From assembly GCA_936941155.1 (NCBI GenBank), contig CAKZJE010000031.1, positions 1 through 64,000 on the forward strand: a stretch of DNA of 64,000 nt, written 5' to 3'. The position numbers and the translations under genes were made by a program. Origin of the DNA: an uncultured Methylomonas sp. (GTDB taxonomy: Bacteria; Pseudomonadota; Gammaproteobacteria; Methylococcales; Methylomonadaceae). Within the stretch, counting starts at the first letter, position 1. Each line of letters starts with the position of its first letter. Under the pieces are notes generated by a model. The model saw nothing but the letters and a program-made list of their open reading frames with translations, did not search any database and had not been told where the DNA came from. This document shows, in pieces, positions 18,692 to 44,618 of this stretch.

Positions 18692-18724
18692 AGACCTGAC
18701 AGGTTTTTAAAACCTGTCAGGTCT
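18692..18724. repeat. 33-nt palindrome (AGACCTGACAGG variant), intergenic
   Basis: Two perfect 16-nt arms, AGACCTGACAGGTTTT and AAAACCTGTCAGGTCT, flank a single T. Size and architecture equal the coding copies at 19294-19326 and 30301-30333. The stem differs (TGACAGG against TTCCAGG), but each copy keeps its own arms complementary. Confidence 0.85.
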
Positions 18725-19247: not shown

Positions 19248-21539
19248 CGTTTTATCTCCTGTATTAATATAAAAATTCGTTTGTTTTGTTCCCAGACCTT
19301 CCAGGTTTTTAAAACCAGGAAGGTCTAAGCCGTCAATTAATTTTAAAATATCTACATCTGCATAAGGTGGATTACCACATTCAATTGTATATTTACGATG
19401 TGCAATTCGTTCTTTTAGTTTTTCGTAATCATAAAAGTGTGGATTTTCTAAACTTTCGCAAGTTTTGCACAAACACGGAATCAATTTTTTACATTTATCT
19501 TTCAACCTTTCATAACTTGAATTAATTTTATCTAATTCATAGCTGACAATATTCAGCAATTCTTTTTTATTTTGTCCAACCACGCGAATATAAATTTCAC
19601 GCTTGCCATAATATTCAATAATTTCAGCTTGCGTTTTATCTTTCTCCAAAATTACGCCGCTTTTCCATACCCATTCATAATTATGCGCAATGTATTCGTG
19701 CATCACAACAATAAACTGCGAAACGATCCCTTTTGGCATAAAGTCATATTGATAGCGTAATAACAAATCTTGCCCATGACTAGCAGTCCTTAAAGGATTT
19801 TCAGTCATAATCGGTGCTTTATCTTCTAATAATTGTGGTGAAATATAGTGACTTTTGCGATTAGGTATTTCATAGCACAATTTGAATTTTTGCATTAATG
19901 CTAATAATTCGCTGCGCATGTCGCTGTATTGTTCCGCTTGCCAAATTTGTTTTAAATCGTCTTTGCTAAATCGTCCCGAATGTTTAATGACATCGGCGTT
20001 ATCCAACACTTTATACACCGCATCGGTTGCCCAAGTGGGTTTTAAAATTAAGGTTTTATCCAATAATTCATGCTCTTGAAAATGCAGACACACGCCTAAA
20101 TCGTGCAAATAGCCGCTTAATTGGCGTTTATCCGCTTCGCTTTCAAAACCGTTGGCTTGGCAAATGGCAAAGTATTCTTTTAAGTCCAGGTAATAGCGGT
20201 CGTCGTGTTCTAATTGTTCGCGCACTTTCACCCACGTTTTCGGCAACGGTGAGCCAATATGCGGTAATTGACCAAGATAATGTTGTAAGTTTTCAATGAT
20301 GGCTGTTAAGCCGCGATTGTTGCTTAAGTTGGTGGCAAAAATATCTTTGATATTATTGAAATCGGCTTTTAATTGACTTTCAGAAATTTGCCGCTTGCGG
20401 TCAGATTTCTCATTTTTGATAATCAATAATGGGCTGTTATCGCTTAACATGCCAACGGTATTGAGCCAATAATAAAAGTCGCTGTCTTCTTTGCGATTAT
20501 CCGCGAGTAATAGATATAACGAGCGTTTGCTTAAAAAAAACTGATGCGTTTGATGATAAATTTCTTGCCCACCAAAATCCCAAATATTGACACGAAAAGT
20601 TTTATCTTTATAAGGAAATTCGTATTTTAATATTTCAATCCCTTGGGTGGATTGTGATTCATTTTCAGGGATTAATTGCCACTGAGGGTTAATGATTTTA
20701 TTGGCTAGGCTTGTTTTTCCTGCTCCACCCTCTCCAACTAAAATCAATTTAGATTCATAAATATAATCCAATCCAACCTTATCAATTTGCTTAAAGTAAG
20801 AATAAATCTCCTTTATTCCGCGAGATATTATTTCTGGGGGAGGATTAATAATTGGATTATGCCCTACACTAAAAGTATTAATGTTACATAATATTTCTTT
20901 TATTGGTTTTATATCGCTAATTTTATTGTTATTCAAATAAAGTGTTTTAATTTTTTCTAACTTATCTAAATGACTTACATCGCAAATATTATTTTTTCTG
21001 AGATCAAGACTCGTTAAGTTATTCAGTTTTTTTAAAGGACTTATGTCTGAAATATTATTATTATACAAACTGAGTAATATAAGTTTGTTTAAATCACTTA
21101 GTGAGCTTATGTTAGTTATTTCATTATGATCTAAATATAAATAATTTAAATTAAATAGGTTTTTTAATCCTGCTAATCTTTTTATATTATTTTCTCTTAA
21201 GTCAAGATAAGTTAGTTTTCTTAACTTATCTATTCCAGACGTATCTATTATTTTATTTCGCCATAAAATAACATGAATTAAATTAGGCAGTTCATTCAGA
21301 ACCTTTATATTAACAATTTGATTTATAGCTAAATTTAGCTGGCAAACACTTTTTAACTTTGCTAAAAAAATAATATTTGAAATATTACATTCCATTAAAT
21401 TTAAACTTATAATCTTTCTGTTATTTAATATATAAGAGCATTTTCCTTCCAAAGTCATAATATTTTTATCAGGATGACAAGGCTTTAATTTTTTGCCAAT
21501 TATCTCTTCAATTTCTTTAATAACGTCTAAATCTGACAT
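18861..21539 (-). CDS. LRR-Roc-COR (ROCO) protein 2 with C-terminal extension
   Basis: 892 residues. The N-terminus MSDLDVIKEIEEIIG matches ROCO 1. LRR units occupy about 45-235; the Roc GTPase has P-loop GEGGAGKTS (about 262-272), switch II WDFGGQE and KNEKSD in the G4 position; COR lies at about 470-700. Residues 739-749 (DLPGFKNLEGL) are encoded by a 33-nt palindrome. From Met765 a glycine-rich YVGGNVTGGNIAGHD segment and a helical tail follow, which has its own ribosome site and may once have been separate. Both ROCO genes face the HD-GYP-moxR pair. Confidence 0.88.
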   Translation of the reverse strand: MSDLDVIKEIEEIIGKKLKPCHPDKNIMTLEGKCSYILNNRKIISLNLMECNISNIIFLAKLKSVCQLNLAINQIVNIKVLNELPNLIHVILWRNKIIDTSGIDKLRKLTYLDLRENNIKRLAGLKNLFNLNYLYLDHNEITNISSLSDLNKLILLSLYNNNISDISPLKKLNNLTSLDLRKNNICDVSHLDKLEKIKTLYLNNNKISDIKPIKEILCNINTFSVGHNPIINPPPEIISRGIKEIYSYFKQIDKVGLDYIYESKLILVGEGGAGKTSLANKIINPQWQLIPENESQSTQGIEILKYEFPYKDKTFRVNIWDFGGQEIYHQTHQFFLSKRSLYLLLADNRKEDSDFYYWLNTVGMLSDNSPLLIIKNEKSDRKRQISESQLKADFNNIKDIFATNLSNNRGLTAIIENLQHYLGQLPHIGSPLPKTWVKVREQLEHDDRYYLDLKEYFAICQANGFESEADKRQLSGYLHDLGVCLHFQEHELLDKTLILKPTWATDAVYKVLDNADVIKHSGRFSKDDLKQIWQAEQYSDMRSELLALMQKFKLCYEIPNRKSHYISPQLLEDKAPIMTENPLRTASHGQDLLLRYQYDFMPKGIVSQFIVVMHEYIAHNYEWVWKSGVILEKDKTQAEIIEYYGKREIYIRVVGQNKKELLNIVSYELDKINSSYERLKDKCKKLIPCLCKTCESLENPHFYDYEKLKERIAHRKYTIECGNPPYADVDILKLIDGLDLPGFKNLEGLGTKQTNFYINTGDKTMSGDTNYGVYVGGNVTGGNIAGHDMTINNQGMNKDEFAQLLAQLKQELAETNIEPKRLNSVTSDIAVIENEIAENNPDKDLIENKISGINLLLEKTNKVMDSADKGKETLMRVIATGKTLLSALSFLA
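19294..19326. repeat. 33-nt palindrome inside ROCO 2 coding sequence
   Basis: Near-perfect 16-nt arms (one mismatch) around a single centre base. On the coding strand it encodes DLPGFKNLEGL in the same phase as the pepN copy, the first base being the third position of the preceding codon. Being 33 nt, it adds 11 codons without a frameshift. Confidence 0.9.
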
Positions 21540-28780: not shown

Positions 28781-31435
28781 ATGCAAAACTCTAATTTAAA
28801 CACCATTTATCGCAAGGACTATCAAGTTCCTTCTTATCTCATTCACAGCGTTGAATTGAAATTTACGCTTGATGCCGAACAAACCCGTGTTAGCTCACGC
28901 TTAACTATGCAGCGCAATCCTGCAAGTACCGATAGTGATACTAATTTAACGTTGTCGGGTGAGAATTTAACGTTGGTGGGAATTAGCTTAGACGGGATAG
29001 CAATCAGTGAAAGTGCTTATCAACAAAGCCCTGATGCCTTGATTTTCCGTATGTTACCACAGGATAAAATATTTGTAATAACCATTGAAAACATCATCAA
29101 TCCAGCGGCTAACACCGCATTGGAAGGTTTATATTTGTCGAATGGAATGTTTTGCACGCAATGTGAAGCGCAAGGTTTTCGCAAAATTACTTACTTTTTA
29201 GACCGCCCTGATGTGATGAGCAAATTCACCACCACGATTGTTGGCGATAAAACCTTGTATCCTAAGTTGTTGTCTAATGGCAATAAAGTGGCGTTTGGGG
29301 AGTTGGAAAACAATCAACATTGGGTAACATGGGAAGACCCGTTTAATAAACCGTGTTATTTGTTCGCGCTGGTGGCAGGTCAATTGGAAGTTGTGGAAGA
29401 TACATTCATCACCATGAGCGGACGTGAGATTGCTTTGGAAATTTTTGTCGAAAGCCATGATGTGGATAAATGCGACCACGCCATGCAATCGCTAAAACGC
29501 GCCATGCAGTGGGATGAGCAAGTGTATGGGCGCGAATACGATTTAGATTTATACATGATTGTCGCGGTTGGGCATTTCAATATGGGTGCAATGGAAAATA
29601 AAGGCTTGAACGTGTTTAACACCAAGTTTGTGTTAGCGCGTCCTGATACCGCAACGGATGTGGATTACGAAGGAATTGAAGGCGTGATTGCGCATGAATA
29701 TTTCCACAATTGGTCTGGCAATCGCGTCACTTGTCGAGATTGGTTTCAATTGAGTTTGAAAGAAGGTTTTACGGTTTTTAGAGATCAAGAATTTACCGCC
29801 GATCAAACTTCGCACGGGGTAAAACGGATTGAAGATGTGAATTTGCTACGCACTCGCCAATTTGCTGAAGACGCAGGGCCGCTGGCGCATCCAATTCGCC
29901 CTGATGCTTATATTGAAATCAACAATTTTTATACCTTAACGGTGTATGAAAAAGGCGCGGAAGTGGTGCGAATGCTGCGGACTTTAGTAGGCACGGCGGG
30001 TTTTCGCAAAGGCTGTGATTTATATTTTGATCGTCACGATGGACAAGCGGTCACTTGTGATGATTTTGTCAAAGCCATGGAAGATGCTAATGACGTTGAC
30101 TTAGGACAATTTCGCCGTTGGTATGAACAAGCCGGTACGCCGGTGATTAAGGTTGCGCAAACTTATAATTCTGCGGAACAAACGCTGACTTTAACGCTAA
30201 ATCAAAGCTGTGCGCCAACGCCCGGACAAACGGAAAAACCGCCGCTACATATTCCAGTCAAAATGGGATTGTTAAATGCTGATGGCACAGCAGCGGGTAT
30301 AGACCTTCCAGGTTTTAAAAACCTGGAAGGTCTGAAAGAAATTGTTTTAGATTTGACTCAAGCACAGCAAAGTTTTGTGTTTGAAAATTTGCCGCAACAA
30401 CCGATTGTTTCTTTACTGCGCGGTTTTTCTGCCCCTGTGAAAGTAGAAATGGAACAAAGCTTGGAAGAATTGGCGTTTTTACTCAGCTATGACACAGATT
30501 CTTTTAATCGCTGGGAAGCGGGACAAAAACTAGCCACCACCATTATTTTCGCCTTGATTGACGACATCCAAAATCAACGCCCATTAGTATTAAATCCCAT
30601 GTTAGTGACTGCGTTTGAAAAAGTTTTGCAGCAAGAATGGGACGATTTGGCGTATTTATCATTGCTATTAACACTGCCTAGTGAAATTTATTTAGCCGAG
30701 CAAATGGCAGTGGTGGATGTGGTTGCGATTCATCAAGCGCGTGAGTTTGTAAAACATGGCTTAGTGCAACAACTGCAAGCGCAATTTCAGGCTTTTTATC
30801 AACGTTATCATCGTGATGAATCTTGCTTGTTTGATGCAGGCGCAATCGGACGCAGACGGGTGAAAAATGTTTGTTTGAGCTATTTAATGTGTTTGGAAAA
30901 TGCAGAAATTCAACAATTAAGTCTGGCGCAATTTCAATCTGCAAAAAATATGACCGACCAAATGGCGGCTTTGACGGCAATCGTCAATAGTTATCACCCT
31001 GAAAAATCAGCGTGTTTAGAGGCGTTTTATCAACAATGGCAAAACGAAGCCTTGGTGGTGGATAAATGGTTTACTCTGCAAGCCAGCTCGTTTATGCCAA
31101 ACACTTTTGCAACCGTGCAAAGTTTAATGGCGCATCCTGCATTTGATATGAAAACACCCAATCGGGTGCGCTCAGTGATTGGCGCATTCAGTCAAAGTAA
31201 TCCCGTGCATTATCATGCAGCGAATGGCGAAGGTTATCAATTTCTAGCTGACCAAGTGATTGCTTTAAATAGTTTAAATCCGCAAGTGGCATCGCGAATG
31301 ATTAATGCTTTAACTTCATGGCGACGTTTTGACGAACAGCGGCAAGCATTGATGAAAGCGCAATTGCAACGGATTATGCAAACGCCGGACATTTCACCGG
31401 ATGTGTATGAAATTGCGAGTAAAAGTTTGAATTAA
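28781..31435 (+). CDS. pepN: Aminopeptidase N
   Basis: 884 residues of an M1 zinc aminopeptidase. The substrate-binding GAMENKGLNVFN lies at about 269-280 and the zinc site HEYFHNWSGN with the downstream Glu (LKEG) at about 304-327. It removes N-terminal residues from peptides in the cytoplasm. The length is slightly above the E. coli enzyme. Residues 508-518 (DLPGFKNLEGL) are encoded by a perfect 33-nt palindrome; from memory of the E. coli sequence this is a loop between strands of the beta-sandwich domain before the conserved QSFVFENL. Confidence 0.96.
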   Translation: MQNSNLNTIYRKDYQVPSYLIHSVELKFTLDAEQTRVSSRLTMQRNPASTDSDTNLTLSGENLTLVGISLDGIAISESAYQQSPDALIFRMLPQDKIFVITIENIINPAANTALEGLYLSNGMFCTQCEAQGFRKITYFLDRPDVMSKFTTTIVGDKTLYPKLLSNGNKVAFGELENNQHWVTWEDPFNKPCYLFALVAGQLEVVEDTFITMSGREIALEIFVESHDVDKCDHAMQSLKRAMQWDEQVYGREYDLDLYMIVAVGHFNMGAMENKGLNVFNTKFVLARPDTATDVDYEGIEGVIAHEYFHNWSGNRVTCRDWFQLSLKEGFTVFRDQEFTADQTSHGVKRIEDVNLLRTRQFAEDAGPLAHPIRPDAYIEINNFYTLTVYEKGAEVVRMLRTLVGTAGFRKGCDLYFDRHDGQAVTCDDFVKAMEDANDVDLGQFRRWYEQAGTPVIKVAQTYNSAEQTLTLTLNQSCAPTPGQTEKPPLHIPVKMGLLNADGTAAGIDLPGFKNLEGLKEIVLDLTQAQQSFVFENLPQQPIVSLLRGFSAPVKVEMEQSLEELAFLLSYDTDSFNRWEAGQKLATTIIFALIDDIQNQRPLVLNPMLVTAFEKVLQQEWDDLAYLSLLLTLPSEIYLAEQMAVVDVVAIHQAREFVKHGLVQQLQAQFQAFYQRYHRDESCLFDAGAIGRRRVKNVCLSYLMCLENAEIQQLSLAQFQSAKNMTDQMAALTAIVNSYHPEKSACLEAFYQQWQNEALVVDKWFTLQASSFMPNTFATVQSLMAHPAFDMKTPNRVRSVIGAFSQSNPVHYHAANGEGYQFLADQVIALNSLNPQVASRMINALTSWRRFDEQRQALMKAQLQRIMQTPDISPDVYEIASKSLN
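30301..30333. repeat. 33-nt perfect palindrome inside pepN
   Basis: Arms AGACCTTCCAGGTTTT and AAAACCTGGAAGGTCT are perfectly complementary around one centre base. It is translated as DLPGFKNLEGL in the same phase as in ROCO 2. The rest of pepN is intact, so the insertion is evidently tolerated. Confidence 0.92.
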
Positions 31436-32583: not shown

Positions 32584-32941
32584 GGTAGATTCCTAAAAAG
32601 AAGAAGGTTAAGTTTCAGAAATTAAATTATAGCGGATTAGTCAAAATTGCGATTTAGAAAATTATGAACGAAACCCGCAAATTTGTTCAGTTTTTGTCTT
32701 TAACATAAATTTTACGCACTGCACACAAAAGTAAATCTGAGATTAAAATATCTTACCTTTATCATTATTGTGCGAGAAAAAAGGGTGGAAACTGAATTTT
32801 TCATGGTTATAATCCTTTCTTTTGTTCTCTGAATCAAACTTAGAAAAAAACGCTCCGAATCATCATCCTGTTAATCTTTGTGCCTAAAAATCCTGATTCA
32901 GACAGTCCACCCTCACAATCATTGTGCGAGGGTAGGTGTTT
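32584..32941. other. Intergenic region left of the TA array
   Basis: No gene is seen apart from the OmpA promoter region. It contains a degenerate copy of the composite repeat from about 32826 (CTGAATCA... ATCATCATCCTGTTAATC ... CCTGATTCAGACA) and its hairpin, plus a fragment TCATTATTGTGCGAGAAAAA (about 32761-32780) that resembles the hairpin part alone. Confidence 0.55.
32826..32941. repeat. Composite repeat, copy a
   Basis: A degenerate first copy of the unit that separates modules in the TA array. Recognisable blocks are CATCATCCTGTTAATCTTTG, CCTGATTCAGACA and the hairpin CACCCTCACAATCATTGTGC followed by GAGGGT and a T-run. Confidence 0.75.
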
Positions 32942-32960
32942 TTAAGATGCGATTAACTTT

Positions 32961-33227
32961 TCATATTCTGTATGCGAGCCAAAACCAAACTAAACCTTCT
33001 GCTCTGTCTTTGGCTAATGCCCGATAATTTAAGCCAACTCGCACCGACCAAAAAATGCCTATTTTCTTCAAATGCAAAGACGGATGACGCGGATTGATTT
33101 GCAAGAGTTCAAAGTTTTTATCGGCTAAGTTTTGGATGTGTTCAGGCAGTTGGCGATAGTGAAACCAAAAATCTGCGGAGCAAAATAGTTCACAGCGGCT
33201 GCACACGACCTGCGTTAAAGTGGTCAT
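32961..33227 (-). CDS. RelE/ParE-like toxin with probable C-terminal frameshift
   Basis: Up to 88 residues. FWFHYRQLPEHIQNLADKNFELLQ, RHPSLHLKKIGIFWSVRVGLNYRALA and GLVWFWL are typical of small RelE-fold toxins. The frame ends in LAYRI, but the next frame continues as GSHTEYEKLIAS to a stop at 32942, which is the ending expected for the family. A frameshift near the TTTT at about 32988 is likely. The start is uncertain: ATG 33227 or GTG 33206, both overlapping the antitoxin. Confidence 0.68.
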   Translation of the reverse strand: MTTLTQVVCSRCELFCSADFWFHYRQLPEHIQNLADKNFELLQINPRHPSLHLKKIGIFWSVRVGLNYRALAKDRAEGLVWFWLAYRI

Positions 33228-33390
33228 CAACTTGTTGGGCAATTTTGTCTAAGCGACCCGCCAAAATATCGGCTTCGATTTTTTTATCCCATTGTTCTGC
33301 CATAAACTCTTCAAACCATTGGGAGAATTGAAAAAGTTTATCGGCGGGTAAATTAATCACAACGGCTTCAAGTTCTTCAATGTCAGTCAT
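33190..33390 (-). CDS. Antitoxin of the first array module
   Basis: 66 residues, MTDIEELEAVVINLPADKLFQFSQWFEEF... ending DDHFNAGRVQPL. The acidic helical body and AGRxxPL ending are common in antitoxins preceding RelE-like toxins. Toxin and antitoxin overlap. Confidence 0.72.
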   Translation of the reverse strand: MTDIEELEAVVINLPADKLFQFSQWFEEFMAEQWDKKIEADILAGRLDKIAQQVDDHFNAGRVQPL

Positions 33391-33427
33391 TTTTGACTCC
33401 TTAGCGTTTTTAAAGGTGCTTTTTGTT

Positions 33428-33575
33428 GTCTGAATCAGGATTCACAGGATTTTAGGATAAACAGGATAAAACAAACGCCCCGTGTCATCATCCTGTTCAT
33501 CTTTGTGCTAAGAAAATCCTGTTCAAAACTTTGTCTGCCCTCAACTTTCATGGTGTGAGGGTGAGTATTTTTGTA
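33428..33575. repeat. Composite repeat, copy b
   Basis: A full copy: TGTCTGAATCAGGATTCACA, then GGATAAACAGGATAAAACAA, ACGCCCCGTGTCATCATCCT, AATCCTGTTCAAAACTTTG and the hairpin ending GTGAGGGTGAG with a T-run. It separates the first and second TA modules. Confidence 0.88.
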
Positions 33576-33583
33576 GATGTGAG

Positions 33584-33886
33584 TTAAGGAGTACGGTCAA
33601 TCTCATTATGACAAGCAACACGGCGTAACGTGGCACACCCTCTTTTGATTTCCATTGACACTTTATAATTTCCCGTGACATGAATGGTATAAATGTCAGG
33701 GTTAGAGTAGCCTTTAAGTTTCTCGAACCGCAATCCGCTTGGCGGTGGATTAGCATCGAGTAGTTTTTTCAGTTTTTCACGACAAAGCTGTTTAAACTCA
33801 GGAGCGAGTTTTTTAAAATCTTTTTCAAAACGGGCGGATGTAGTAATTTGCGTAATCACCACGCCACCTGAACCCACCTGTGTCAT
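33584..33886 (-). CDS. RelE/ParE-family toxin
   Basis: 100 residues. TTSARFEKDFKKLAPEFKQLCREKLKKLLD and the basic strands IYTIHVTGNYKVSMEIKRG match RelE-fold mRNA interferases, and CHNEIDRTP is a plausible C-terminal catalytic strand. The start overlaps the preceding 157-residue gene by ATGA. TA role rests on fold and coupling. Confidence 0.8.
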   Translation of the reverse strand: MTQVGSGGVVITQITTSARFEKDFKKLAPEFKQLCREKLKKLLDANPPPSGLRFEKLKGYSNPDIYTIHVTGNYKVSMEIKRGCATLRRVACHNEIDRTP

Positions 33887-34356
33887 AAGCTATCCAAATA
33901 ATCACTAAAACTCTCGGTATTGGTAAACGTTGTTCCTTCAGCGTGCAATACACTTACATCAGCATCGTGCTCCAATACAAATTGACGGATTGCTTCTATT
34001 TTTTGATATAACTTTCGCATAAGAAATCCATTGATGCTAAGAATGGGCTTGTGAAAAAAAGGTATGTCTTTAGACTGTATTTGCCGAATCTTTTGATACA
34101 TCTCTTTTTCTGTTGTTTGTAACTGTAACATTCTTTCATCTAGCTCATCATCAGAATCGATTTCAGTCTCTACAGGGGTTTTTCGTATTTCTTTATAAAG
34201 TAAGTTTGTTTCTATAGATGAGCTTAACAAGTTTAAAAAAATTGCAACTCCTCCTAACAGGACATTAGCATGAAATTGATAGCTTTCTGTGGAAGCTTCA
34301 AGCCCTTGCAGCATCTGTTGTAAGTGATTGGTTTGATTAATAATTGAAATATTCAT
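33883..34356 (-). CDS. Unknown protein coupled to a RelE-like toxin (putative antitoxin)
   Basis: 157 residues starting MNISIINQTNHLQQML. A mildly hydrophobic segment (about 30-48, VLLGGVAIFLNLLSSSIE) is followed by a long acidic helical stretch and the C-terminal TESFSDYLDSL. It is unusually long for a RelE antitoxin and has no DNA-binding motif I recognise. Coupling (ATGA overlap) to the toxin suggests it neutralises it. Family not recognised. Confidence 0.5.
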   Translation of the reverse strand: MNISIINQTNHLQQMLQGLEASTESYQFHANVLLGGVAIFLNLLSSSIETNLLYKEIRKTPVETEIDSDDELDERMLQLQTTEKEMYQKIRQIQSKDIPFFHKPILSINGFLMRKLYQKIEAIRQFVLEHDADVSVLHAEGTTFTNTESFSDYLDSL

Positions 34357-34433
34357 TTTTAACAGCCTGTTGCAAAAAATAAAAAAGCAGAAAAAAGTAT
34401 AGCTTTAAAAAGTTATAAAAGTACATAGAACTT

Positions 34434-34572
34434 CCCCTCACAATTATTATGCGAGAGCAGGTGTTTTGTAGGATAAAACAAACGCCCCGTGTCATCATCC
34501 TGTTCATCTTTGTGCCTGAAAATCCTGTTCAAAACTTTGCCCACCTCACAATCATTGTGCGATGGCAAGGGA
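34434..34572. repeat. Composite repeat, copy c
   Basis: Contains GGATAAAACAAACGCCCCGT and GTCATCATCCTGTTCATC, with a hairpin-type segment at both ends (CCCCTCACAATTATTATGCG on the left; CCTCACAATCATTGTGCGAT on the right). The TGTCTGAATCA arm is absent. It separates the RelE module from the Uma2 gene. Confidence 0.82.
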
Positions 34573-34576
34573 GCGA

Positions 34577-35062
34577 TTAAAAAAAGTCAATCTTAATAAC
34601 AACTGGAAAATCAGGCATCAATACGCTGCTTTCTAATTCGTGTTCCGCATTAAAAAACGACATTTTGCCTTGACTGTTACACAACCAAACCTCCTGCGCT
34701 CCTTTAGCAAAATAGAGCTGCTTTTTTTGCATCATTTCTGCTTTCGTATTTGAGGGGGAAATGACTTCAATCAAAATTTCAGGGGCTTCCAAATACGGAT
34801 TTCGTGATTTGTTACGTTTGAAAAAATCAACAGTTGCCCATGCGACATCAGCGACCTTAACGCCTTTAGTGGTTTGTACACTGCATTCTGGAAAAGCCCA
34901 GCCTTTTTGACCTAATTTATTCAGCCAGCCAATGAGTAAGCCTTGATAAATGCTGTGTGTATTGCTCGCTGGACTCATTTCTATTTTTCCCCATTCATTC
35001 GTTTCAAATTTAAACGGCAAATCGTTAAAAGCCGGATTATTACAAATCTGTTGCCAATTCAT
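34577..35062 (-). CDS. Uma2-family putative endonuclease
   Basis: 161 residues of the Uma2/DUF820 family, a PD-(D/E)xK-like nuclease fold. GVKVADVAW gives the conserved Asp (about 97) and APEILIEVISPSN the Glu (about 117) with downstream Lys residues. Uma2 genes are abundant in cyanobacteria and some filamentous gammaproteobacteria; function is unproven. It occupies one slot of the TA array and has no partner gene. Confidence 0.85.
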   Translation of the reverse strand: MNWQQICNNPAFNDLPFKFETNEWGKIEMSPASNTHSIYQGLLIGWLNKLGQKGWAFPECSVQTTKGVKVADVAWATVDFFKRNKSRNPYLEAPEILIEVISPSNTKAEMMQKKQLYFAKGAQEVWLCNSQGKMSFFNAEHELESSVLMPDFPVVIKIDFF

Positions 35063-35115
35063 GTTTGCGACCTCGTAAGAGAATAAATGTAACGAATTAA
35101 ATTATAGGGCATTTT

Positions 35116-35238
35116 TGTCTGAATCAGAATTCCCAGAATTTTAGAATTTAACAGAATAATTCTGAAAATTTTTAAATTCGGAAAATTCTGATTCAGACAG
35201 CCCACCCTCAACGTTCATTGTGCGAGGGTGGTTTTTTT
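35116..35238. repeat. Composite repeat, copy d, with long palindrome
   Basis: 35116-35199 is a palindrome with perfect 16-nt ends TGTCTGAATCAGAATT / AATTCTGATTCAGACA and further inner pairing. The CACCCTCAACGTTCATTGTG hairpin and T-run follow. The middle block differs from the other copies. Confidence 0.85.
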
Positions 35239-35321
35239 GTAGGTTGGGGTGAGGAACGAACCCCAACATTTGCGGGTATTTGTGGGTTTTTGTTGGGGTT
35301 CGCAAGCTTACCCCAACCTAC
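35239..35321. repeat. MITE-like element with GTAGGTTGGGGT ends
   Basis: 12-bp terminal inverted repeats GTAGGTTGGGGT (35239-35250) and ACCCCAACCTAC (35310-35321) enclose about 60 bp including an inner pair of CGAACCCCAACA / TGTTGGGGTTCG. No gene is inside. The TAG stop of the ParE-like toxin falls in its right arm. It is related to the element at 9861-9989. Confidence 0.82.
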
Positions 35322-35506
35322 GCGCTAATTTCGCCTTTATGCACCGTACCGCTTTCAGGAAAACGACTCAATAACGTTGTCAAAGCAGCTACCCATTCGG
35401 TTGTAAACCGCTTTGCAGCCTGCGGTTTATCTAATGCAATAAAGTAGCCAATTTCTTCCAATTCAGCATCCGCTTGTGGCATCATCTTAACCCGATATTC
35501 TTCCAT
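35318..35506 (-). pseudogene. ParE-like toxin truncated by a repeat element
   Basis: The frame starts MEEYRVKMMPQADAELEEIG and runs AAKRFTTEWVAALTTLLSRFPESG, a clear ParE N-terminal and central region. It stops after 62 residues, inside the GTAGGTTGGGG element. The final strands, with the YRVxY-type residues ParE toxins need, are missing. It was probably inactivated. Confidence 0.78.
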
Positions 35507-35744
35507 TGCCAGCTCCAAGCCGTTGTTCAATACGTTGATTTAAGCCATTAACATAATCATCATCAATAATTATCCCCAAACCCGCTTCCGCTTGCTCAAT
35601 GCCGATTTGTATTTTTTTCTCTAACTCCTGATTAATTAACGACTGATGCTTAGTCTTTAAAAACTCCACAAAATCCAAAACTTCCAAAGCCAGCATTTCT
35701 GGGAAGCTTTGCATATCGTGATAAACCTGTTCTACGGCATTCAT
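35487..35744 (-). CDS. Antitoxin of the truncated ParE module
   Basis: 85 residues from MNAVEQVYHDMQSFPEMLALEVLDFVEFLKTKHQ, a DUF2281-like N-terminus as at 7491-7697, with a longer C-terminal part (GLGIIIDDDYVNGLNQRIEQRL). AAGGAG precedes the ATG at 35744. The end overlaps the toxin start by 20 nt. With the toxin broken it may persist without function. Confidence 0.75.
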   Translation of the reverse strand: MNAVEQVYHDMQSFPEMLALEVLDFVEFLKTKHQSLINQELEKKIQIGIEQAEAGLGIIIDDDYVNGLNQRIEQRLGAGNGRISG

Positions 35745-35791
35745 GTTTAACTCCTTAAGAATATTCTTATTGTGTGCGGGAAGTATTTTGT

Positions 35792-35936
35792 TGTCTGATT
35801 CAGAATTCACACGATTTCAGGACAAGCAGGATAAAACAAACGCCCCGTGTCATCATCCTGTTCATCTTTGTGCCTGAAAATCCTGTTCAAAACATTGCCC
35901 ACCCTCACAATCATTGTGCGAGGGTGGTGTTTTTTC
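35792..35936. repeat. Composite repeat, copy e
   Basis: TGTCTGATTCAGAATTCACA, AGGATAAAACAAACGCCCCG, GTCATCATCCTGTTCATC, TCCTGTTCAAAACATTGCCC and the hairpin CACCCTCACAATCATTGTGC with GAGGGTGG and a T-run, in the same order as copy b. Confidence 0.88.
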
Positions 35937-35944
35937 GGCGGGGA

Positions 35945-36217
35945 CTATTTAAACAAATCGGCGTGAGTTCCCATTCGTTCAAAAATAACTTTGTCAGCCT
36001 CAAAACGGTAAATCAGCAACCAATCCGGTTCAATATGACAGTCACGGCGATTTGCAAAATTTCCCACCAACGGATGGTCGCAATAACGCGGCTCTAAAAC
36101 TTCACCCGCCATCAGTTTTAAAGCCACCGTTTTAAACTTGCCGATGTCCTTACCGCGTTTCTGCATTCGTTTTAAATCCTTTTCAAAACGATTTAAATAA
36201 ACAGGCGCGTACATCAA
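35945..36217 (-). CDS. YafQ-type RelE-family toxin
   Basis: 90 residues. RFEKDLKRMQKRGKDIGKFKTVALKLMAGE and the catalytic-type stretch HPLVGNFANRRDCHIEPDWLLIYRF match YafQ, an mRNA interferase that acts on the ribosome. His residues (DHPLVG, DCHIEPDW) are in place. It overlaps the antitoxin by 4 nt (ATGA). Confidence 0.9.
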   Translation of the reverse strand: MMYAPVYLNRFEKDLKRMQKRGKDIGKFKTVALKLMAGEVLEPRYCDHPLVGNFANRRDCHIEPDWLLIYRFEADKVIFERMGTHADLFK

Positions 36218-36483
36218 ATGCCCAATTTGCTAAAAAAATCATCCGCATCTTTGCATTCAATTAAATCAACGCCTTGTTCAGAATCTTTAAAAGCTTGCAA
36301 AGTTTCGTCATTCGGTTGGTTAAATGAAAAAGGCAAATTTTGCCGCAAAACACAGGCTTCAAAAAATAAATCAATGGCTTGTTCGCGGCTTAGTCCCAGA
36401 CGCTTAAAAACCACATCTGCTTTTTTGGCTAAGTCAGTTTGAATATGTGCCTTTGCAGGACTTGTGATAACAACGCTATTCAT
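36214..36483 (-). CDS. RelB/DinJ-family antitoxin
   Basis: 89 residues from MNSVVITSPAKAHIQTDLAKKADVVFKRLGLSREQAIDLFFEACVLRQNLPF, which is the RelB/DinJ ribbon-helix-helix plus linker pattern (given as positions 1-52 of the product). The C-terminal part DSEQGVDLIECKDADDFFSKLG binds the toxin. The ATG at 36483 is preferred over one five codons upstream. Confidence 0.88.
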   Translation of the reverse strand: MNSVVITSPAKAHIQTDLAKKADVVFKRLGLSREQAIDLFFEACVLRQNLPFSFNQPNDETLQAFKDSEQGVDLIECKDADDFFSKLGI

Positions 36484-36525
36484 CAGAAAGCACCTCATTA
36501 TTTATAAATTGTTTGTGTCTTTTTT

Positions 36526-36667
36526 TGTCTGAATCAGACAGACACGCAATAGAATAAACAGGATAAAACAAACGCGCCGTGTCATCATCCTGCTCATCTT
36601 TTAATCCTGAAAATCCTGTTCAAAACTTTGCCCACCCGCAACTTTCATTGTGCGAGGGTGGTGTTTT
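36526..36667. repeat. Composite repeat, copy f
   Basis: TGTCTGAATCAGACA (itself a short palindrome), then AGGATAAAACAAACGCGCCG, GTCATCATCCTGCTCATC, AATCCTGTTCAAAACTTTG and a hairpin CACCCGCAACTTTCATTGTG with GAGGGTGG and a T-run. Confidence 0.87.
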
Positions 36668-36686
36668 TGGGATGGTGTGGTTTTAC

Positions 36687-37094
36687 TTACCAAAACGTCT
36701 CAACAATCCCTTTATATAAATGAAAATTCTCATCCACAGACAACATGATGGCATTTTCCTCATAAGCCGTTGCCAATAATAATCGGTCAAACGGGTCTCG
36801 GTGTTCCTCGAATAACGGGATTCTTTGATAGCTGAATAAGTGTTGATTTTTGATAGGCAGATAAGTGAAATTATCGGCGATTGCTTGATGATAGACTTCG
36901 TTTAAATCAGCAGTAAATTCAGGCAGTTTACCGATTTTTTGCTTGATGGCAATCTCAAACAAGCTGACTTGGCTAAAAAATACCGTGTTTGACAAGTCCT
37001 GAATTTTATCCATGACTTTAGCAGGAATTTTAGGGTCATCGTTCTGAAACCAAATTAGGCAATGGGTGTCCAGAATGAAATTCTTAGCTGTCAT
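36687..37094 (-). CDS. PIN-domain toxin (VapC type)
   Basis: 135 residues. FILDTHCLIWFQND has the first catalytic Asp, SLFEIAIKQKIGKL the Glu, EEHRDPFDRLLLATAYEEN the central Asp pair, and LSVDENFHLY the last. The DTHxLIWF start defines the subgroup with small DUF2281-like partners. The ATG directly abuts the antitoxin stop. Confidence 0.88.
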   Translation of the reverse strand: MTAKNFILDTHCLIWFQNDDPKIPAKVMDKIQDLSNTVFFSQVSLFEIAIKQKIGKLPEFTADLNEVYHQAIADNFTYLPIKNQHLFSYQRIPLFEEHRDPFDRLLLATAYEENAIMLSVDENFHLYKGIVETFW

Positions 37095-37310
37095 TTACAT
37101 GTAATCCCTTAAATCATCCAGCGGTTCATTGAAATTGTCTGGAAGGGTGACTTTGCCTTTTAAGCCGCCGGGCATCCGCTTTTTCTGTTCACCGCTTTTA
37201 AGGTTTTCGGTCAGAAAAGTAATCATCACCGCCGTTTTTGCTGTGACTGGAGCTTCCTCTTTTAGAAAGATTTGCCCTTGTTCGTAGTAGCCTTCAATGG
37301 TTGTGAACAT
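37095..37310 (-). CDS. Antitoxin partner of VapC
   Basis: 71 residues, MFTTIEGYYEQGQIFLKEEAPVTAKTAVMITFL..., a small beta-rich N-terminus (the IEGxYExGxI pattern common in such antitoxins) and a C-terminal MPGGLKGKVTLPDNFNEPLDDLRDYM that matches the toxin-binding tail of many VapB-like proteins. Confidence 0.8.
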   Translation of the reverse strand: MFTTIEGYYEQGQIFLKEEAPVTAKTAVMITFLTENLKSGEQKKRMPGGLKGKVTLPDNFNEPLDDLRDYM

Positions 37311-37360
37311 GATTTAAATCTCCGTAGGTGATAGTGAACTGTTTGGGTGGTATTTGTTGT

Positions 37361-37495
37361 TGTCTCAATCATGATTTACAAGATTTTAGGATAAACAGGA
37401 TAAAACAAACGCGCCGCATCATCATCCTGTTCATCTTTTAATCCTGAAAATCCTGATTCAGACACTTTCATTGTGCGAGGGTGGGTGTTTTTTCG
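37361..37495. repeat. Composite repeat, copy g
   Basis: TGTCTCAATCATGATTTACA, AGGATAAAACAAACGCGCCG, CATCATCATCCTGTTCATC, CCTGATTCAGACA and a shortened hairpin TTTCATTGTGCGAGGGTGGG with a T-run. It closes the array on the right. Confidence 0.83.
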
Positions 37496-37558
37496 GGGGA
37501 TGGCGTGGGTTTTGGGCGGGTAAAAACGGTAAGATAGAAGATGAGCAATTTACTTGGT

Positions 37559-38615: not shown

Positions 38616-38921
38616 TCAAACATACCCACTCTCCATCACCGGCAACACCCAATAATGAATCCCCGCATTCGCAAACTCCGCCTTTAACTTCGCCAACAAC
38701 AACGGCAAATCGCTCTCAGGAATATACATCTGAAAGCGGATTTTCTTCTGCCTGCCCGTCACCTGCTCCGCCAACGACAACCCCTCATTGCGATGATCGT
38801 GCGAAAACACCGGCATACTGCTAAACCCATGCTCCGATTCAAACGTCAACAAACAATCCACAATCGGCTCCTCCAACTCCGGCGACACATTCAACGTCAC
38901 CAAAAACTCTTTCGCACTCAT
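38616..38921 (-). CDS. DUF3240 family protein of metal efflux operon
   Basis: 101 residues, MSAKEFLVTLNVSPELEEPIVDCLL..., with ESEHGFSSMPVFSHDH and a GRQKKIRFQMYIP strand. DUF3240 proteins are small ferredoxin-like proteins commonly found next to CzcA/CusA pumps and are thought to sense or regulate them. The start overlaps the pump stop by 4 nt (ATGA). Confidence 0.85.
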   Translation of the reverse strand: MSAKEFLVTLNVSPELEEPIVDCLLTFESEHGFSSMPVFSHDHRNEGLSLAEQVTGRQKKIRFQMYIPESDLPLLLAKLKAEFANAGIHYWVLPVMESGYV

Positions 38922-41900
38922 ACCAGCTCCTTACGCGGTTGCCCGACCAGCTTGTACAAAATCGGCAACAAAATCAGGGTTAAAAACGTGGACGACACCA
39001 AGCCGCCAATCACCACAATTGCCAGCGGGCGTTGAATTTCAGAACCTGGGCCTGTGGCAATCAACATCGGAATCAAGCCAAACGCGGCAATGCTGGCAGT
39101 CATCAACACCGGACGCAACCGCCGCGCTGAACCAATCACCACCAACTTGGTCAAATCCATGCCCATCGCATAAAGCTGATTGAAATACGTCACCATCACC
39201 ACGCCGTTCAGCACCGCAATTCCCAGCAACGCAATAAAACCCACCGAAGCGGGAACGGATAAATATTCACCCGACAGCCACAACGCAAACACCCCGCCAA
39301 TCATCGCCAGCGGCACGTTGGATAACACTAAACTCGCTTGTCGCACTGAACCGAAAGTCGAAAATAGCAGCAAGAAAATCAAGCCTAACGAAATCGGCAC
39401 AACTAAACTCAAGCGAGCCGCAGCGCGTTGTTGGTTTTCAAATTGTCCGCCGAATTGCAACGTGTATCCGGTGGGGAATTTCACTTTTTCAGCGACTAAT
39501 TTTTTCGCTTCCTCCACAAAACCGACTAAATCCCGCCCTTCGACATTGGAACGAATCACCACAAACCGCTGTCCGCGTTCCCGTACAATCGAAACTACGC
39601 CTTCCACATGCTCAATTTTCGCAATCGCGGTAATCGGAATATGCCCACCATTTGGCAAAGTGATTTGCAGATTGGCAAAATTTGCCGTGTTGCTATCACC
39701 ACGCAAAATTAACGGCGTGCGTTTAATCCCTTCCTGCACAATGCCAAGTTTCAAGCCTTCAATTTGCGAGCGCAGAATTTGCTCGATGCTGTCACTGTCC
39801 AAACCATAACGCCCAGCGGCGGCGCGGTCTATGGTCAATTGTAAAAACTGCATTCCGTCATTTTGGCTGGCAAACACATCACTCGAACCTTTGATGCTTT
39901 TTAATACCGCTGCGATTTCTTGCGCTTTTTGATTTAACACATCCAAATCACTGCCAAACAATTTCACCGCCACATCACCGCGCGTTCCAGTCAACATTTC
40001 AGAAACCCGCATTTCAATTGGTTGCGTAAATCCAAAGGCAATGCCGGGGGTGTGACTCATCACATGGCGGATTTCCTCAATCAACAATTCTTTGGTGGCA
40101 ACTGCTTTGCGCCATTGTTCTTTCGGTTTGAAAATCAAAAACGTGTCGGTATCGTTCAAACTCATCGGGTCTAAACCCAACTCATCCGTGCCCATTCGGG
40201 AAACAACGTGGTCAATTTCAGGAATATTTTTCAGCAGATTTTTCTGTACCTGAATATCCAAATCCACCGATTGTTGCAACGTAATAGAGGGCAATTTTTG
40301 CAACTGCACAATCACATCGCCTTCATCCATTGTTGGCATAAAGGTGCTGCCGATTTGTGTAAATGCCAAAATCGTTGCCGCAAATAACACGCCAGTCGCC
40401 ACAAACACTTTTTTGCTATTGGCTAAACACCAGACCAACAGTGGTTGATACAGTTTTTGCAAAGTGCGCGGCAGCCAAGGTTCTTCATGCGAGACTTCTT
40501 TTAATAGGTAAGAGGCGAGAACCGGAATCACCGATAACGACAAAATCAACGAACCGCCTAATGCAAATACGATGGTCAACGCGACTGGCATAAACATTTT
40601 GCCTTCCAAACCTTGCAAGGTCATTAGCGGCAAAAACACGATGATGATGATTAAAATCCCTGACGTAACAGGCACAGAAACTTCGCGCGTGGCGCGGTAA
40701 ATTAAATGCAAACGCGGCAAACGGTCGGCTTTTTCCTTGTGCGCAAGATGGGTGATGATGTTTTCCACCACCACTACTGCGCCATCTACCAACATGCCGA
40801 TGGCAATCGCCAAACCGCCGAGACTCATTAAATTGGCTGACATACCAAAATAGTTCATCAGAATAAAAGTAATCAGTGCAGCTAAAGGCAACGCTAATGC
40901 GACAGTCAATGCAGCGCGTAAGTTCCCTAAAAATGCAATCAGCAAAACGACAACTAATACAATCGCTTCCATTAAGGCATGAGTGACGGTACTCACTGCT
41001 TTGCCAACCAACACGCCGCGATTGTAGAAAATATGCGCAGTCACGCCTTTCGGAAAACCCGCGCTAATTTCATTCAACTTGGCTTCAATATCAACCACCG
41101 TTTGCCGTGCGTTTGCACCGCGTAAACTCAGCACTAAACCCGTCACTGCTTCGCCTTTGCCGTCTTTACTGACCGCACCGTAACGGGTTAAACCGCCTAA
41201 CGACACATTTGCCACATCACCAACAGTAATCGGTGTGCCGCTGGATTGGTCAACGACAATCGCTTTGACATCTTCTAACGTCTTAATTCGACCTTCCACC
41301 CGCACGATTAAGGCTTCTTCGCCTTCGGTTAAACGCCCTGCACCATCATTTTTATTGTTCAGTTCTAAGGCCTGAATCAACTTGTCTACGCCGATATTCC
41401 GTGCAGCCATTTTTGTGTTGTCAGGACTGACCACAAAACTTTTCACCAAGCCGCCGAGCGAATTCACATCCGCCACACCTGGCACGGTGCGCAATGCTGG
41501 ACGAATTACCCAGTCCAATAAATCACGTTTTTCCATTAACGTGAGCGTGTCAGATTCAATCGAAAACATGAACATTTCACCCAGCGGCGTGGTCATCGGT
41601 GCAACCCCGCCTTCCACTCCCGCAGGCAGGTTTCCCCACACGCCCGTTAAACGTTCCGCGACCTGTTGCCGCGCCCAAAAAATATCCGTGCCTTCTTCAA
41701 AATCTACCGTAATATCGGTGAGCGCGTATTTAGCGGTGGAGCGCAGCATGGTTTGATGCGGAATGCCCAACAATTCGACTTCAATTGGCGCGGTAATTCG
41801 TGACTCGACTTCTTCAGGGGTCATGCCCGCTGATTTAACGATAATTTTTACTTGCGTCGGTGAAACTTCGGGAAACGCATCAATCGGAATATGATTAAAG

Positions 41901-41986
41901 GCGTTATAACCACCACCGATTAATAAAACGATAAACAACATCGTCAAAATACGTTGGGTTAAAGCAAAGCGAATTAAATTAGCCAT
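38918..41986 (-). CDS. Heavy-metal efflux RND permease (CzcA/CusA family)
   Basis: 1022 residues, a proton-driven trimeric inner membrane pump. About 12 membrane helices and two large periplasmic loops are present. HME-family marks include FPEVSPTQVKIIVKSAGMTPEEVE near the N-terminus and GMLVDGAVVVVENI in helix 4 (about 397-410). It works with the adaptor and outer membrane channel encoded upstream. The metal (Cu, Zn, Co, Cd) is not decided by what I can see. Confidence 0.94.
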   Translation of the reverse strand: MANLIRFALTQRILTMLFIVLLIGGGYNAFNHIPIDAFPEVSPTQVKIIVKSAGMTPEEVESRITAPIEVELLGIPHQTMLRSTAKYALTDITVDFEEGTDIFWARQQVAERLTGVWGNLPAGVEGGVAPMTTPLGEMFMFSIESDTLTLMEKRDLLDWVIRPALRTVPGVADVNSLGGLVKSFVVSPDNTKMAARNIGVDKLIQALELNNKNDGAGRLTEGEEALIVRVEGRIKTLEDVKAIVVDQSSGTPITVGDVANVSLGGLTRYGAVSKDGKGEAVTGLVLSLRGANARQTVVDIEAKLNEISAGFPKGVTAHIFYNRGVLVGKAVSTVTHALMEAIVLVVVLLIAFLGNLRAALTVALALPLAALITFILMNYFGMSANLMSLGGLAIAIGMLVDGAVVVVENIITHLAHKEKADRLPRLHLIYRATREVSVPVTSGILIIIIVFLPLMTLQGLEGKMFMPVALTIVFALGGSLILSLSVIPVLASYLLKEVSHEEPWLPRTLQKLYQPLLVWCLANSKKVFVATGVLFAATILAFTQIGSTFMPTMDEGDVIVQLQKLPSITLQQSVDLDIQVQKNLLKNIPEIDHVVSRMGTDELGLDPMSLNDTDTFLIFKPKEQWRKAVATKELLIEEIRHVMSHTPGIAFGFTQPIEMRVSEMLTGTRGDVAVKLFGSDLDVLNQKAQEIAAVLKSIKGSSDVFASQNDGMQFLQLTIDRAAAGRYGLDSDSIEQILRSQIEGLKLGIVQEGIKRTPLILRGDSNTANFANLQITLPNGGHIPITAIAKIEHVEGVVSIVRERGQRFVVIRSNVEGRDLVGFVEEAKKLVAEKVKFPTGYTLQFGGQFENQQRAAARLSLVVPISLGLIFLLLFSTFGSVRQASLVLSNVPLAMIGGVFALWLSGEYLSVPASVGFIALLGIAVLNGVVMVTYFNQLYAMGMDLTKLVVIGSARRLRPVLMTASIAAFGLIPMLIATGPGSEIQRPLAIVVIGGLVSSTFLTLILLPILYKLVGQPRKELV

Positions 41987-42071: not shown

Positions 42072-43205
42072 TTATTCACTGCCTCCCAAACCCAGCCAGT
42101 TGGCTTTTAACGCCACCGCGCCTTTCACGGCAATTTGCTCTGAACCTTTTAACGCGCCGTTAATCATCGAAGTTGCGGCTTGTTTGCCAATCACATTCAC
42201 GGGAATAACGGCAAAACCTTTCGCATTGCGCACAAATAAAAACGCCTTGCCTTCGTTTTGTGCAATCGCGGCATTTGGCACTTCAAACGCCGTGTTAGTA
42301 TTGCCTTGAATCACCGAAATATTCACACTTTGTCCGGCTCGCAACGATTCTTGGTTCGACACAATGACCGCGCGAGCCATCACCGATTGATTGGTCAGAT
42401 TGACGCTTTTGCCTAATAGGGTAATTTTCGCAGTCGCAGGACTGTTGGTAATGGCAACCGTATCGCCAATTTTTACATTGCTGATTTGCTCTTGTGGAAT
42501 GGCAATTTCTAACCAAAGTTGCTCTAAATTCGCCAACCGATATAAAGGAGCAAGCGCATTAAGACGCTCTCCGGCTGTCGCCATGCGTTCTAAAATCACC
42601 CCACTAATTGGAGCAGTTAGTGTGGTTTGACTATTTAATTGCCGAGTTTGCGCTAAACGTTGAATCGCAGTTTCTGACATACCAGCAATTTTCAGCATTT
42701 GTTGAATATTATTTAACTCAGATTCGCGGTCTTGATAAAAGCTGTGGGTTTCTTGCCAGCGTTTTTGCGGAATAATGCCTTCATTGAATAACTTTTTATC
42801 GCGCTGAAAATTATTAAAGGCGAGATTTTTTTCTAAACTGATTTGTAAATAACGGTGTTGTAATTCGACTAAATCAGGACTGTTTAGGGTTGCTAAAACT
42901 TGACCTTTTTTCACCGTATCGCCAACGGTGACATTTAAGCGACTGATTAACGCGGCTTGCGGCGCACTGACGATGGTTTCGTGCTCCGGTGGAATGACTA
43001 CTTTTGCCGGAGCATTTAATAATGGAATGTTCGCAACCGATTTTAATGTGCCGATTTCTACACCTAAATTGCTGATTTGCTCATTAGTTAAAACAATTTG
43101 ATTAGTTGCGGCGTTGAGATTGAAGCTAAAAACAAACAGGCAAGTTAGGACTGCCAGTCCTTTAAAGGACTGGCAGTCCTCTTTAACACTTAATAAATTT
43201 CTCAT
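42072..43205 (-). CDS. Efflux RND periplasmic adaptor (CusB/CzcB type)
   Basis: 377 residues of membrane fusion protein. A signal peptide (about 1-33, with LAVLTCLFVFSFNLNA as the hydrophobic core) precedes biotinyl-lipoyl and helical hairpin regions (SRLNVTVGDTVKKGQVLATLNSPDL at about 90; APISGVILERMATAGERL at about 200). A beta-barrel follows. The start overlaps the TolC-family stop by ATGA. The signal-peptide n-region (VKEDCQSFKGLAVL) is encoded by a 34-bp palindrome. Confidence 0.92.
   Translation of the reverse strand: MRNLLSVKEDCQSFKGLAVLTCLFVFSFNLNAATNQIVLTNEQISNLGVEIGTLKSVANIPLLNAPAKVVIPPEHETIVSAPQAALISRLNVTVGDTVKKGQVLATLNSPDLVELQHRYLQISLEKNLAFNNFQRDKKLFNEGIIPQKRWQETHSFYQDRESELNNIQQMLKIAGMSETAIQRLAQTRQLNSQTTLTAPISGVILERMATAGERLNALAPLYRLANLEQLWLEIAIPQEQISNVKIGDTVAITNSPATAKITLLGKSVNLTNQSVMARAVIVSNQESLRAGQSVNISVIQGNTNTAFEVPNAAIAQNEGKAFLFVRNAKGFAVIPVNVIGKQAATSMINGALKGSEQIAVKGAVALKANWLGLGGSE
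43147..43180. repeat. 34-bp perfect palindrome in the adaptor signal-peptide region
   Basis: AGGACTGCCAGTCCTTT and AAAGGACTGGCAGTCCT are perfectly complementary with no loop base. It is translated as roughly EDCQSFKGLAVL, joining the n-region to the hydrophobic core of the signal peptide. It resembles the 33-nt palindromes in layout but not in sequence. Confidence 0.88.
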
Positions 43206-44461: not shown

Positions 44462-44504
44462 AAAAACTCCTTGGAAATTGAAACTATACGGTGTTCAAGT
44501 TTTT

Positions 44505-44618
44505 GAACACGATTTGAAAGATTATTGGATGAACAGGATTAAGCAGGAGATGTAATAAATTTCAGGTAAAAACTAATCCTGATTATCGTTAAATCTTATA
44601 ATCGTGTTCAAAAAGTGA
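44505..44618. repeat. Imperfect palindrome with TTTTTGAACACGATT ends
   Basis: TTTTTGAACACGATT (44502-44516 region) and AATCGTGTTCAAAAA (about 44602-44616) are inverted ends around GGATGAACAGGATTAAGCAG-like sequence. The layout resembles the composite repeats of the TA array and the segment 21558-21631 upstream of ROCO 2, which has similar AACACGA / TCGTGTT ends. Confidence 0.7.

Follow-up and report, generated by a model that had tools for sequence, protein, structure and literature searches.

The window, a 64,000-nt stretch of contig CAKZJE010000031.1 from an uncultured Methylomonas sp., carries nine copies of an interspersed palindrome and a run of small genes. The features are as follows (no strand is assigned to the palindromes).

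32826..32904, no strand, decayed copy with TGTC-type ends on both sides, left end with 1 mismatch
33190..37310, minus strand, small genes between copies (Pfam; some without a Pfam match)
33427..33528, no strand, hybrid copy, left end TGTCTGAATCA, right end TTTTGAACAGGATT
34470..34534 (start approximate), no strand, half copy, right end TTTTGAACAGGATT, left end lost
34577-35062, minus strand, Uma2 gene between copies (Pfam)
35116..35199, no strand, TGTC-type palindrome, first of the two originally noted
35318-35530, minus strand, ParE-like gene between copies (just below the Pfam cut-off)
35792..35892, no strand, hybrid copy, left end TGTCTGATTCA, right end TTTTGAACAGGATT
35945-36498, minus strand, YafQ/RelB genes between copies (Pfam)
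36526..36625, no strand, hybrid copy, left end TGTCTGAATCA, right end TTTTGAACAGGATT
36687-37310, minus strand, PIN/DUF2281 genes between copies (Pfam)
37361..37464, no strand, TGTC-type palindrome, left end with 1 mismatch
44500..44614, no strand, second-arm-type palindrome TTTTTGAACACGATT, the type beside the GxxExxY gene on contig C34 of the same genome
49326..49419, no strand, TGTC-type palindrome, second of the two originally noted
32902-32935, 34539-34565, 35199-35231, 35893-35927 and 36630-36661, T-run on the plus strand, second short hairpin

The two palindromes singled out in the initial annotation, 35116-35199 (84 nt; arms of 34 nt, 85% complementary) and 49326-49419 (94 nt; arms of 41 nt, 83% complementary), were confirmed; in length they rank third and second, respectively, among the window's inverted repeats. 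Their terminal pairing is indeed perfect, over the outer 16 nt in the former and 17 nt in the latter. The annotation also described an inner change (AGAATT against AAGATT) matched in the opposite arm of each; this holds for these two copies and not as a general rule, as the same position was Watson-Crick paired in 16, G-U paired in 4 and unpaired in 12 of 32 copies in the genome. Copies keeping a single TGTC end, likewise described there, do exist, but in four of them another defined end, TTTTGAACAGGATT, is present on the minus strand at 33515, 34521, 35879 and 36612. Of these, three pair it with a left end of TGTC type and are thus hybrids; in the fourth, at 34521, the left end has been lost. 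This second arm type forms the right end of 4 of the 9 window copies (33427, 34470-34534, 35792, and 36526), the hybrids at 33427, 35792, and 36526 being of TGTC/TTTTGAACA type, and the second arm type alone makes up the plain palindrome at 44500-44614. When one mismatch was allowed, TGTCTGAATCA matched the window 13 times against 1.18 expected, and none of 100 shuffled sequences gave as many. Palindromes with CTGCCAGTCC, at window 43147-43180 and L384 13458-13501, belong to another family.

Copies at 33.4-37.5 kb sit between toxin-antitoxin and Uma2 genes. In two congeners, beside the same gene pair (38616-41986), other small genes lie between copies of the same repeat, so that the gene content of the array is evidently exchanged over time, for which homologous recombination at the repeats would be enough. 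Small genes regularly spaced by copies, both here and on contig C45, and the different gene sets at the same place in the congeners G001 and G002 would also suit an integron-like cassette array with the palindrome as its recombination site. That reading is very unlikely, given that in other phyla the genes adjoining the palindrome are not of small size (medians of 264 aa for near and 224 aa for far genes) and that the C45 genes lie in both orientations. A general toxin-antitoxin cassette system was rejected as well, the neighbours in other phyla not being small genes. The observation of a toxin-antitoxin array with repeats between its genes, and of other small genes at that place in the congeners, covers window 32900-37500 and L240, L241, and L242. 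The second short hairpin, CCACCCTC..CATTGTGCGAGGGTGG with its plus-strand T-run, follows the array palindromes.

In the 4.26-Mb genome of the organism, TGTCTGAATCA had 78 exact matches, split 43 to 35 between the strands, against 1 for the reversed pattern. Forty stretches around copies were fetched and read, and 32 full palindromes passed an ungapped arm test. They have the consensus TGTCTGAATCAGG... and are 78-128 nt long; none lies within a called gene, and several are within 20 nt of a gene end. Among 61 genomes of the order searched, the TGTCTGAATCANGATT pattern was present in three of a single genus, with 65 copies in the organism itself, 1 in congener G001 and 6 in congener G002 (assemblies 90% and 93% complete, respectively). 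The pattern of the second arm type matched 10 times in the organism's genome and 3 and 2 times in those of the congeners; ten further genomes were searched and had no match. At the place in G001 orthologous to 49326-49419 there was no such palindrome; the stretch between the flanks was unrelated sequence and gave no clean empty site.

Beyond the order, a 32-nt arm pattern matched at least 117 stretches in contigs representing one genome per species. By record title, the matches listed included 1) Poribacteria; 2) Bacteroidota (Pontibacter, Saprospiraceae, Prevotellaceae, and others); 3) Cyanobacteria (Dolichospermum, Anabaena, and Sphaerospermopsis); and 4) Dehalococcoidia, Thioploca, Parabeggiatoa, other Thiotrichaceae, Desulfobacterales, Kapaibacterium, Ignavibacteriales, Latescibacterota, and Chitinispirillia. 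The foreign stretches also contain full palindromes of like build, some nested or in tandem. The arm pattern was present in eight viral contigs; in phage records neither the palindrome nor one GxxExxY query found a match, and the plasmid records gave a single 44-nt palindrome match, in Anabaena sp. 90. Background was low, since stretches chosen blind to the copies (120 kb of Dolichospermum and 80 kb of the organism's own genome) held 1 and 4 inverted repeats, respectively, none of the arm classes. Direct flank repeats of 2-10 nt around 79 copies were at chance level, giving no sign of a target duplication. The flanks are biased, with T before the left end at a frequency of 0.73 in the organism and 0.81 in others, and A+T-rich sequence at -2 to -4. 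Two other repeats were seen in these collections: tandem arrays in which a TGTCTGAATCAGGATT unit recurs every 82-83 or 101 nt, in Dolichospermum sp. LEGE 00240 (G061; C3, C13, C49, and C66), and a second repeat of about 100 nt at L133 4411-4511, with many matches in Pontibacter genomes.

The initial annotation had allowed that the hairpins might be structured RNA and had named covariation across the copies as the test. No covariation was found over the 32 full copies of the organism. In their alignment 81.5% of cells were paired against 84.0% after the 3' letters were shuffled, changes on both sides occurred in 25 cells against 37.4, and the covariation score was 0.073 against 0.090, a value equalled or exceeded in all 500 of 500 shuffles. 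Counted separately over arms of 32 nt, identity was 0.816 against 0.829 shuffled. For 45 foreign copies, arm identity was 0.832 against 0.818 shuffled, and matching double changes were slightly in excess (35; shuffled mean 23.1, maximum 37). The constant or nearly constant positions form blocks (A14 T15, A23 T24, A31 T32, and A40 T41 with the Gs before them; C19 A20; A28; C36), and the columns between them (17, 18, 26, 27, and 33-35) were unpaired in 13 to 27 of the 32 copies. We read this pattern as putative protein-binding units, repeated in tandem along each arm and inverted between the arms, and not as a hairpin under selection. A scan of the window with Rfam detected 16S rRNA only, and with neither covariation nor an Rfam family at the palindromes the structured-RNA reading fails. 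A structured RNA or selected DNA hairpin acting as a 3' stabiliser, attenuator or bidirectional terminator could draw on the intergenic position of the copies and the nearness of several to gene ends; these pairing results, the match of the constant blocks to unit sequences and an A-rich right flank lacking a T-run make it highly improbable.

The alternative proposed at the outset was a REP/BIME-like element moved by a RAYT (TnpA-REP). The palindromes are intergenic and the genome has two Y1_Tnp genes, as that proposal would expect, yet both genes have AGACCTG..CAGG palindrome ends on each side, and the only TGTCTGAATCA-like site near them has 2 mismatches. The search for TnpA-REP led to another palindrome family. 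Palindromes of this AGACCTKMCAGGTTTT type also occur at window 18692-18724, 19294-19326, and 30301-30333 and in L225 and L226; flanking both Y1_Tnp genes, the type looks like the REP/RAYT pair of this genome. Inverted repeats of GTAGGTTGGG type at window 9856-9994 and 35239-35321 have a REP-like look as well. As described in one account of REPtrons (PMC3733652), REP/RAYT systems resemble the present one in having intergenic palindromes across phyla and a small nuclease-like partner between the repeats; they differ in that the partner is an HUH tyrosine transposase and the repeats are tagged (GTAG/CGTC) and 20-40 bp long. The copies described here have neither GTAG nor CGTC tag, are 78-128 nt long and are paired with a PD-(D/E)XK nuclease (see below), so that mobilisation by a RAYT is scarcely credible.

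Since the Y1_Tnp genes adjoin another palindrome family, the neighbours of the palindrome in other organisms were examined. The top family among them was PF13366 (PDDEXK_3; NCBIfam TIGR04256, GxxExxY). Genes of this family made up 6 of 123 and 4 of 53 genes (10 of 176) within 350 nt of a palindrome and 0 of 112 beyond 1.5 kb (Fisher p 0.008), the genes scanned being 176 of 210 near and 112 of 290 far, with the longest and some very short ones omitted, and the ten near genes not being independent because all come from Bacteroidota records, four of them Pontibacter. The expectation that the palindrome is a substrate of a mobile-element enzyme thus survives in part: it looks like one, and the gene found with it is GxxExxY instead of a single-strand transposase. 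The organism itself carries two GxxExxY genes that are intact and a further copy that is broken (PF13366 above cut-off), and none was found in G001 or G002, which have 1 and 6 palindrome copies, respectively. Among the 61 genomes of the order, 14 have a PF13366 gene and 3 the TGTC pattern; most of the PF13366-bearing genomes thus lack the pattern, which is expected only if their arms differ.

A profile built from 15 GxxExxY proteins was run against the window and loci L060-L224, translated in all six frames, and found 13 loci, none of them in the window. The order left arm, GxxExxY gene, right arm was present in seven foreign loci (L190, L207, L133, L152, L109, L130, and L189, the gene in L189 being broken). 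At C17:77535-77864 of the organism's own genome the order varies, with a whole TGTC-type palindrome upstream of the gene and a right arm downstream, and L143 has a like layout cut by the contig end. The C34 gene has second-type copies, ending GTTCAAAAA, on each side. L165, L191, and L360 have copies on both sides not in plain left-right order; the TGTC ends of L360, which is cyanobacterial, are in one orientation (flank score 11.0). In L202 no palindrome copy lies within 7.5 kb of the gene. In the elements read, no gene other than GxxExxY lay between the arms, and no known transposase (DDE, HUH, tyrosine, or serine) was found there. Two other arrangements were observed: an Rpn-like nuclease gene, below curated cut-offs, lies beside palindrome half copies at L092 7038-8054 (contig C107 of the organism); and in L273, L276, L291, L293, and L299, all of one bacterial family, GxxExxY genes adjoin trpD/trpC-like genes (by eye), with more palindromes at neighbouring gene borders.

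Occupied and unoccupied sites were compared at orthologous places. At one Pontibacter place, P. fetidus carries the element in full. In isolate 4-1420 both arms are present and part of the gene is gone, in P. populi and P. mucosus the right arm remains at this junction, and in P. virosus there is a left arm; P. harenae, P. beigongshangensis, and Pontibacter sp. Tf4 have no arm there. A different contig of Tf4 carries sequence that is 89% identical across the entire element. Between fabD and fabG of Sphingomonas parapaucimobilis lies a GxxExxY gene within TCACGCGAAGGCGCGAGGACGCGA arms; the element is absent from S. paeninsulae, in which the fabD-fabG spacing is about 32 nt. For the TGTC type, no place compared gave a clean occupied/empty pair, and relatives gave no clean empty site for the organism's C17 element.

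The association was also approached from the gene. GxxExxY loci were picked by gene family alone, blind to repeats, and their flanks were tested for complementarity. At a score of at least 15, complementary flanks were present in 71 of 107 loci (drawn from the best-scoring gene matches, most of one list coming from one family) against 7 of 408 mock positions, some of whose flanks overlap one real flank; flanks were taken at 275 and 320 nt, and these lengths, like the cut-off for the score and the arm classes, were set by us. The first set gave 56 of 79 loci (mock 4/300; shuffled flanks 21/1580), with the same-gene-region row pairs L259/L266, L265/L268, and L267/L269 and the weak matches inside larger proteins (L260-L263) kept and L270 dropped for its short flank. 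The second gave 15 of 28 (mock 3/108; shuffled flanks 5/560), comprising 12 of 20 stretches of numbered genomes, hand-picked for variety from the best-scoring lists, and 3 of 8 from plasmid records. The remaining 36 of the 107 genes had no strong complementary flanks at this cut-off. The arms differ from gene to gene and share a common build of tandem 8-11-nt units, such as CGCAGAGG, CACGAAG, GAACGCAGAT, CGCTAAG, CACGAAA, and CAGGATT. Among 1202 called ORFs of up to 500 aa in the loci examined, 68 had strong inverted flanks and 47 of these were GxxExxY, these loci being GxxExxY-rich by choice. Several of the other 21 adjoin such elements, and two, in L126, are Y1_Tnp-like (by eye). Separately, L343 923-1405 holds a small nuclease-like gene (118 aa), which we take to be DUF559, inside CCCCTCCTTATCCAAGGAGGGG palindromes with a flank score of 47.6; it is the sole such gene in the loci examined and perhaps represents a parallel system.

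Arm class was then compared with the phylogeny of 110 GxxExxY domains, a quick tree of 116 columns with SH-aLRT support. The class required 7 changes on the tree against a shuffled mean of 24.9, with 0 of 200 shuffles as low; 84 of the 110 rows have an arm class and 26 have none, and 9 of the 11 GGATT rows come from the repeat-based search or the same Pontibacter gene (L133 and L338 being one gene). Class AG alone, whose rows were not selected by repeat, required 4 changes against 22.3 shuffled. The GGATT-armed Bacteroidota nucleases, the organism's C17 gene and the unlabelled L143 and L360 form a branch with support 99. From this shared branch and the tree as a whole, it appears that a nuclease and its arms pass from phylum to phylum as a pair.

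The partner gene is a member of the GxxExxY family (TIGR04256/PF13366), the name of which carries no function; in the open-access literature searched, exclusive of preprints, 'GxxExxY' and 'PF13366' were mentioned in passing only. TIGR04256 scores were 125.7 (L264), 135.6 (L258), 139.5 (L253), and 141.5 bits (L256), the cut-off being 35. The domain is about 110 aa in size. An AlphaFold model of the C17 protein domain (mean pLDDT 95.2, pTM 0.85) was compared with solved structures using VIA-align, and the best matches were PD-(D/E)XK nucleases: 4ic1 (SSO0001; Z 9.4), then 1y88 (Z 8.2). Further matches, at Z values below 8 and thus possibly unspecific, included Hjc (6.8), EndoMS, EcoRV, and BamHI among others (Z 6.5-6.8). 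Foldseek gave none at E ≤0.001 (best E 0.014), and the best E in a PDB sequence search was 0.54. Residues E22, D61, E71, and K73, which include the catalytic D..(D/E)xK residues, were invariant in 15 of 15 GxxExxY proteins. We take the protein to be a predicted PD-(D/E)XK nuclease, presumably an active one.

On the sequence comparisons, the architecture of the element, its association with the palindromes and the co-inheritance of arms and nuclease are well supported. The palindromes of the window are likely to be gene-less (miniature) or decayed copies of a single-gene GxxExxY inverted-repeat element, and they are probably mobilised by the nuclease. A complete element, of about 0.45-0.6 kb, consists of a left arm, a short leader, the GxxExxY gene and an inverted right arm, the left arm being about 41 nt with four GGAT blocks (TGTCTGAATCA-GGATT-TNCA-GGATT-NNA-GGATT-NNCA-GGAT); without its gene, such an element is the palindrome seen here. 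The nuclease would recognise the tandem 8-11-nt units of its own arms, in duplex or cruciform DNA, and cut at them; arm pairs with or without the gene would be copied or moved into intergenic A+T-rich sites with no target duplication, and pairs lacking the gene would depend on a nuclease acting in trans and decay afterwards. Sequence comparison also establishes that arm type is inherited with the nuclease, that orthologous sites may be occupied, empty or internally deleted, and that the protein has a predicted PD-(D/E)XK-like fold with invariant E, D and ExK residues. We infer binding, cutting and movement by the nuclease, and the direction from complete to gene-less forms; movement driven by the nuclease would be the likeliest mechanism.

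The nuclease could instead be a passenger. The GxxExxY gene and palindromes would then be carried as cargo, or acted on as substrates, by an unrelated transposase or recombinase supplied in trans, and the nuclease would be otherwise employed, for instance in stability or defence. The predicted GxxExxY protein is small and has a fold common to restriction and repair enzymes, which suits such a role; however, arm type and nuclease are inherited together across phyla, GxxExxY alone was found between the arms in the elements read, and it accounts for most strong-flank ORFs in the GxxExxY-rich loci scanned, so that we regard a separate trans-acting enzyme as unlikely.

The reading of the palindromes as offspring of a GxxExxY element places them close to the known relationship between a MITE and its parent insertion sequence, of which MITECca01 and ISCca4 are an example (PMC9769881). 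In both cases the coding element and its gene-less or internally deleted derivatives have terminal inverted repeats in common, and orthologous sites may be occupied or empty. They differ in that the sole gene between the arms here encodes a PD-(D/E)XK nuclease and not a DDE transposase, that no target duplication is present and that the arms are rows of 8-11-nt units. Some insertion sequences also make no target duplication. A nuclease-linked MITE has been suggested in another sulfur bacterium: the authors proposed that the hupL MITE family of Candidatus Thiomargarita derives from a PD-(D/E)XK-endonuclease element (Yhg-A, PD-(D/E)XK_2) (PMC4853749). By its description there, that MITE is set apart by 10-bp direct and 19-bp inverted repeats and another nuclease family (PMC4853749). 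The palindrome and GxxExxY fit the MITE/parent-element kind, and would constitute a new class if the nuclease alone drives movement. We put forward tentatively, as a proposal that may or may not prove correct, such a class of mobile element, in which a minimal PD-(D/E)XK nuclease, in the absence of a transposase or recombinase of known kind, mobilises its own tandem-unit inverted repeats and, in trans, gene-less palindromes, arms and nuclease co-diversifying into many specificities and spreading between phyla.

GxxExxY has been an annotation without a function, and palindromes of this kind lie ownerless and scattered in many phyla; the pairing gives each a partner. If the proposal is true, several widespread families of interspersed palindromes (CRCRGAG, CRCRGAT, CACGAAA, GGATT, and kin) would gain an owner, the sequence of a nuclease should predict the repeat that it recognises, and a bare PD-(D/E)XK nuclease would be able to drive a life cycle like that of an insertion sequence.
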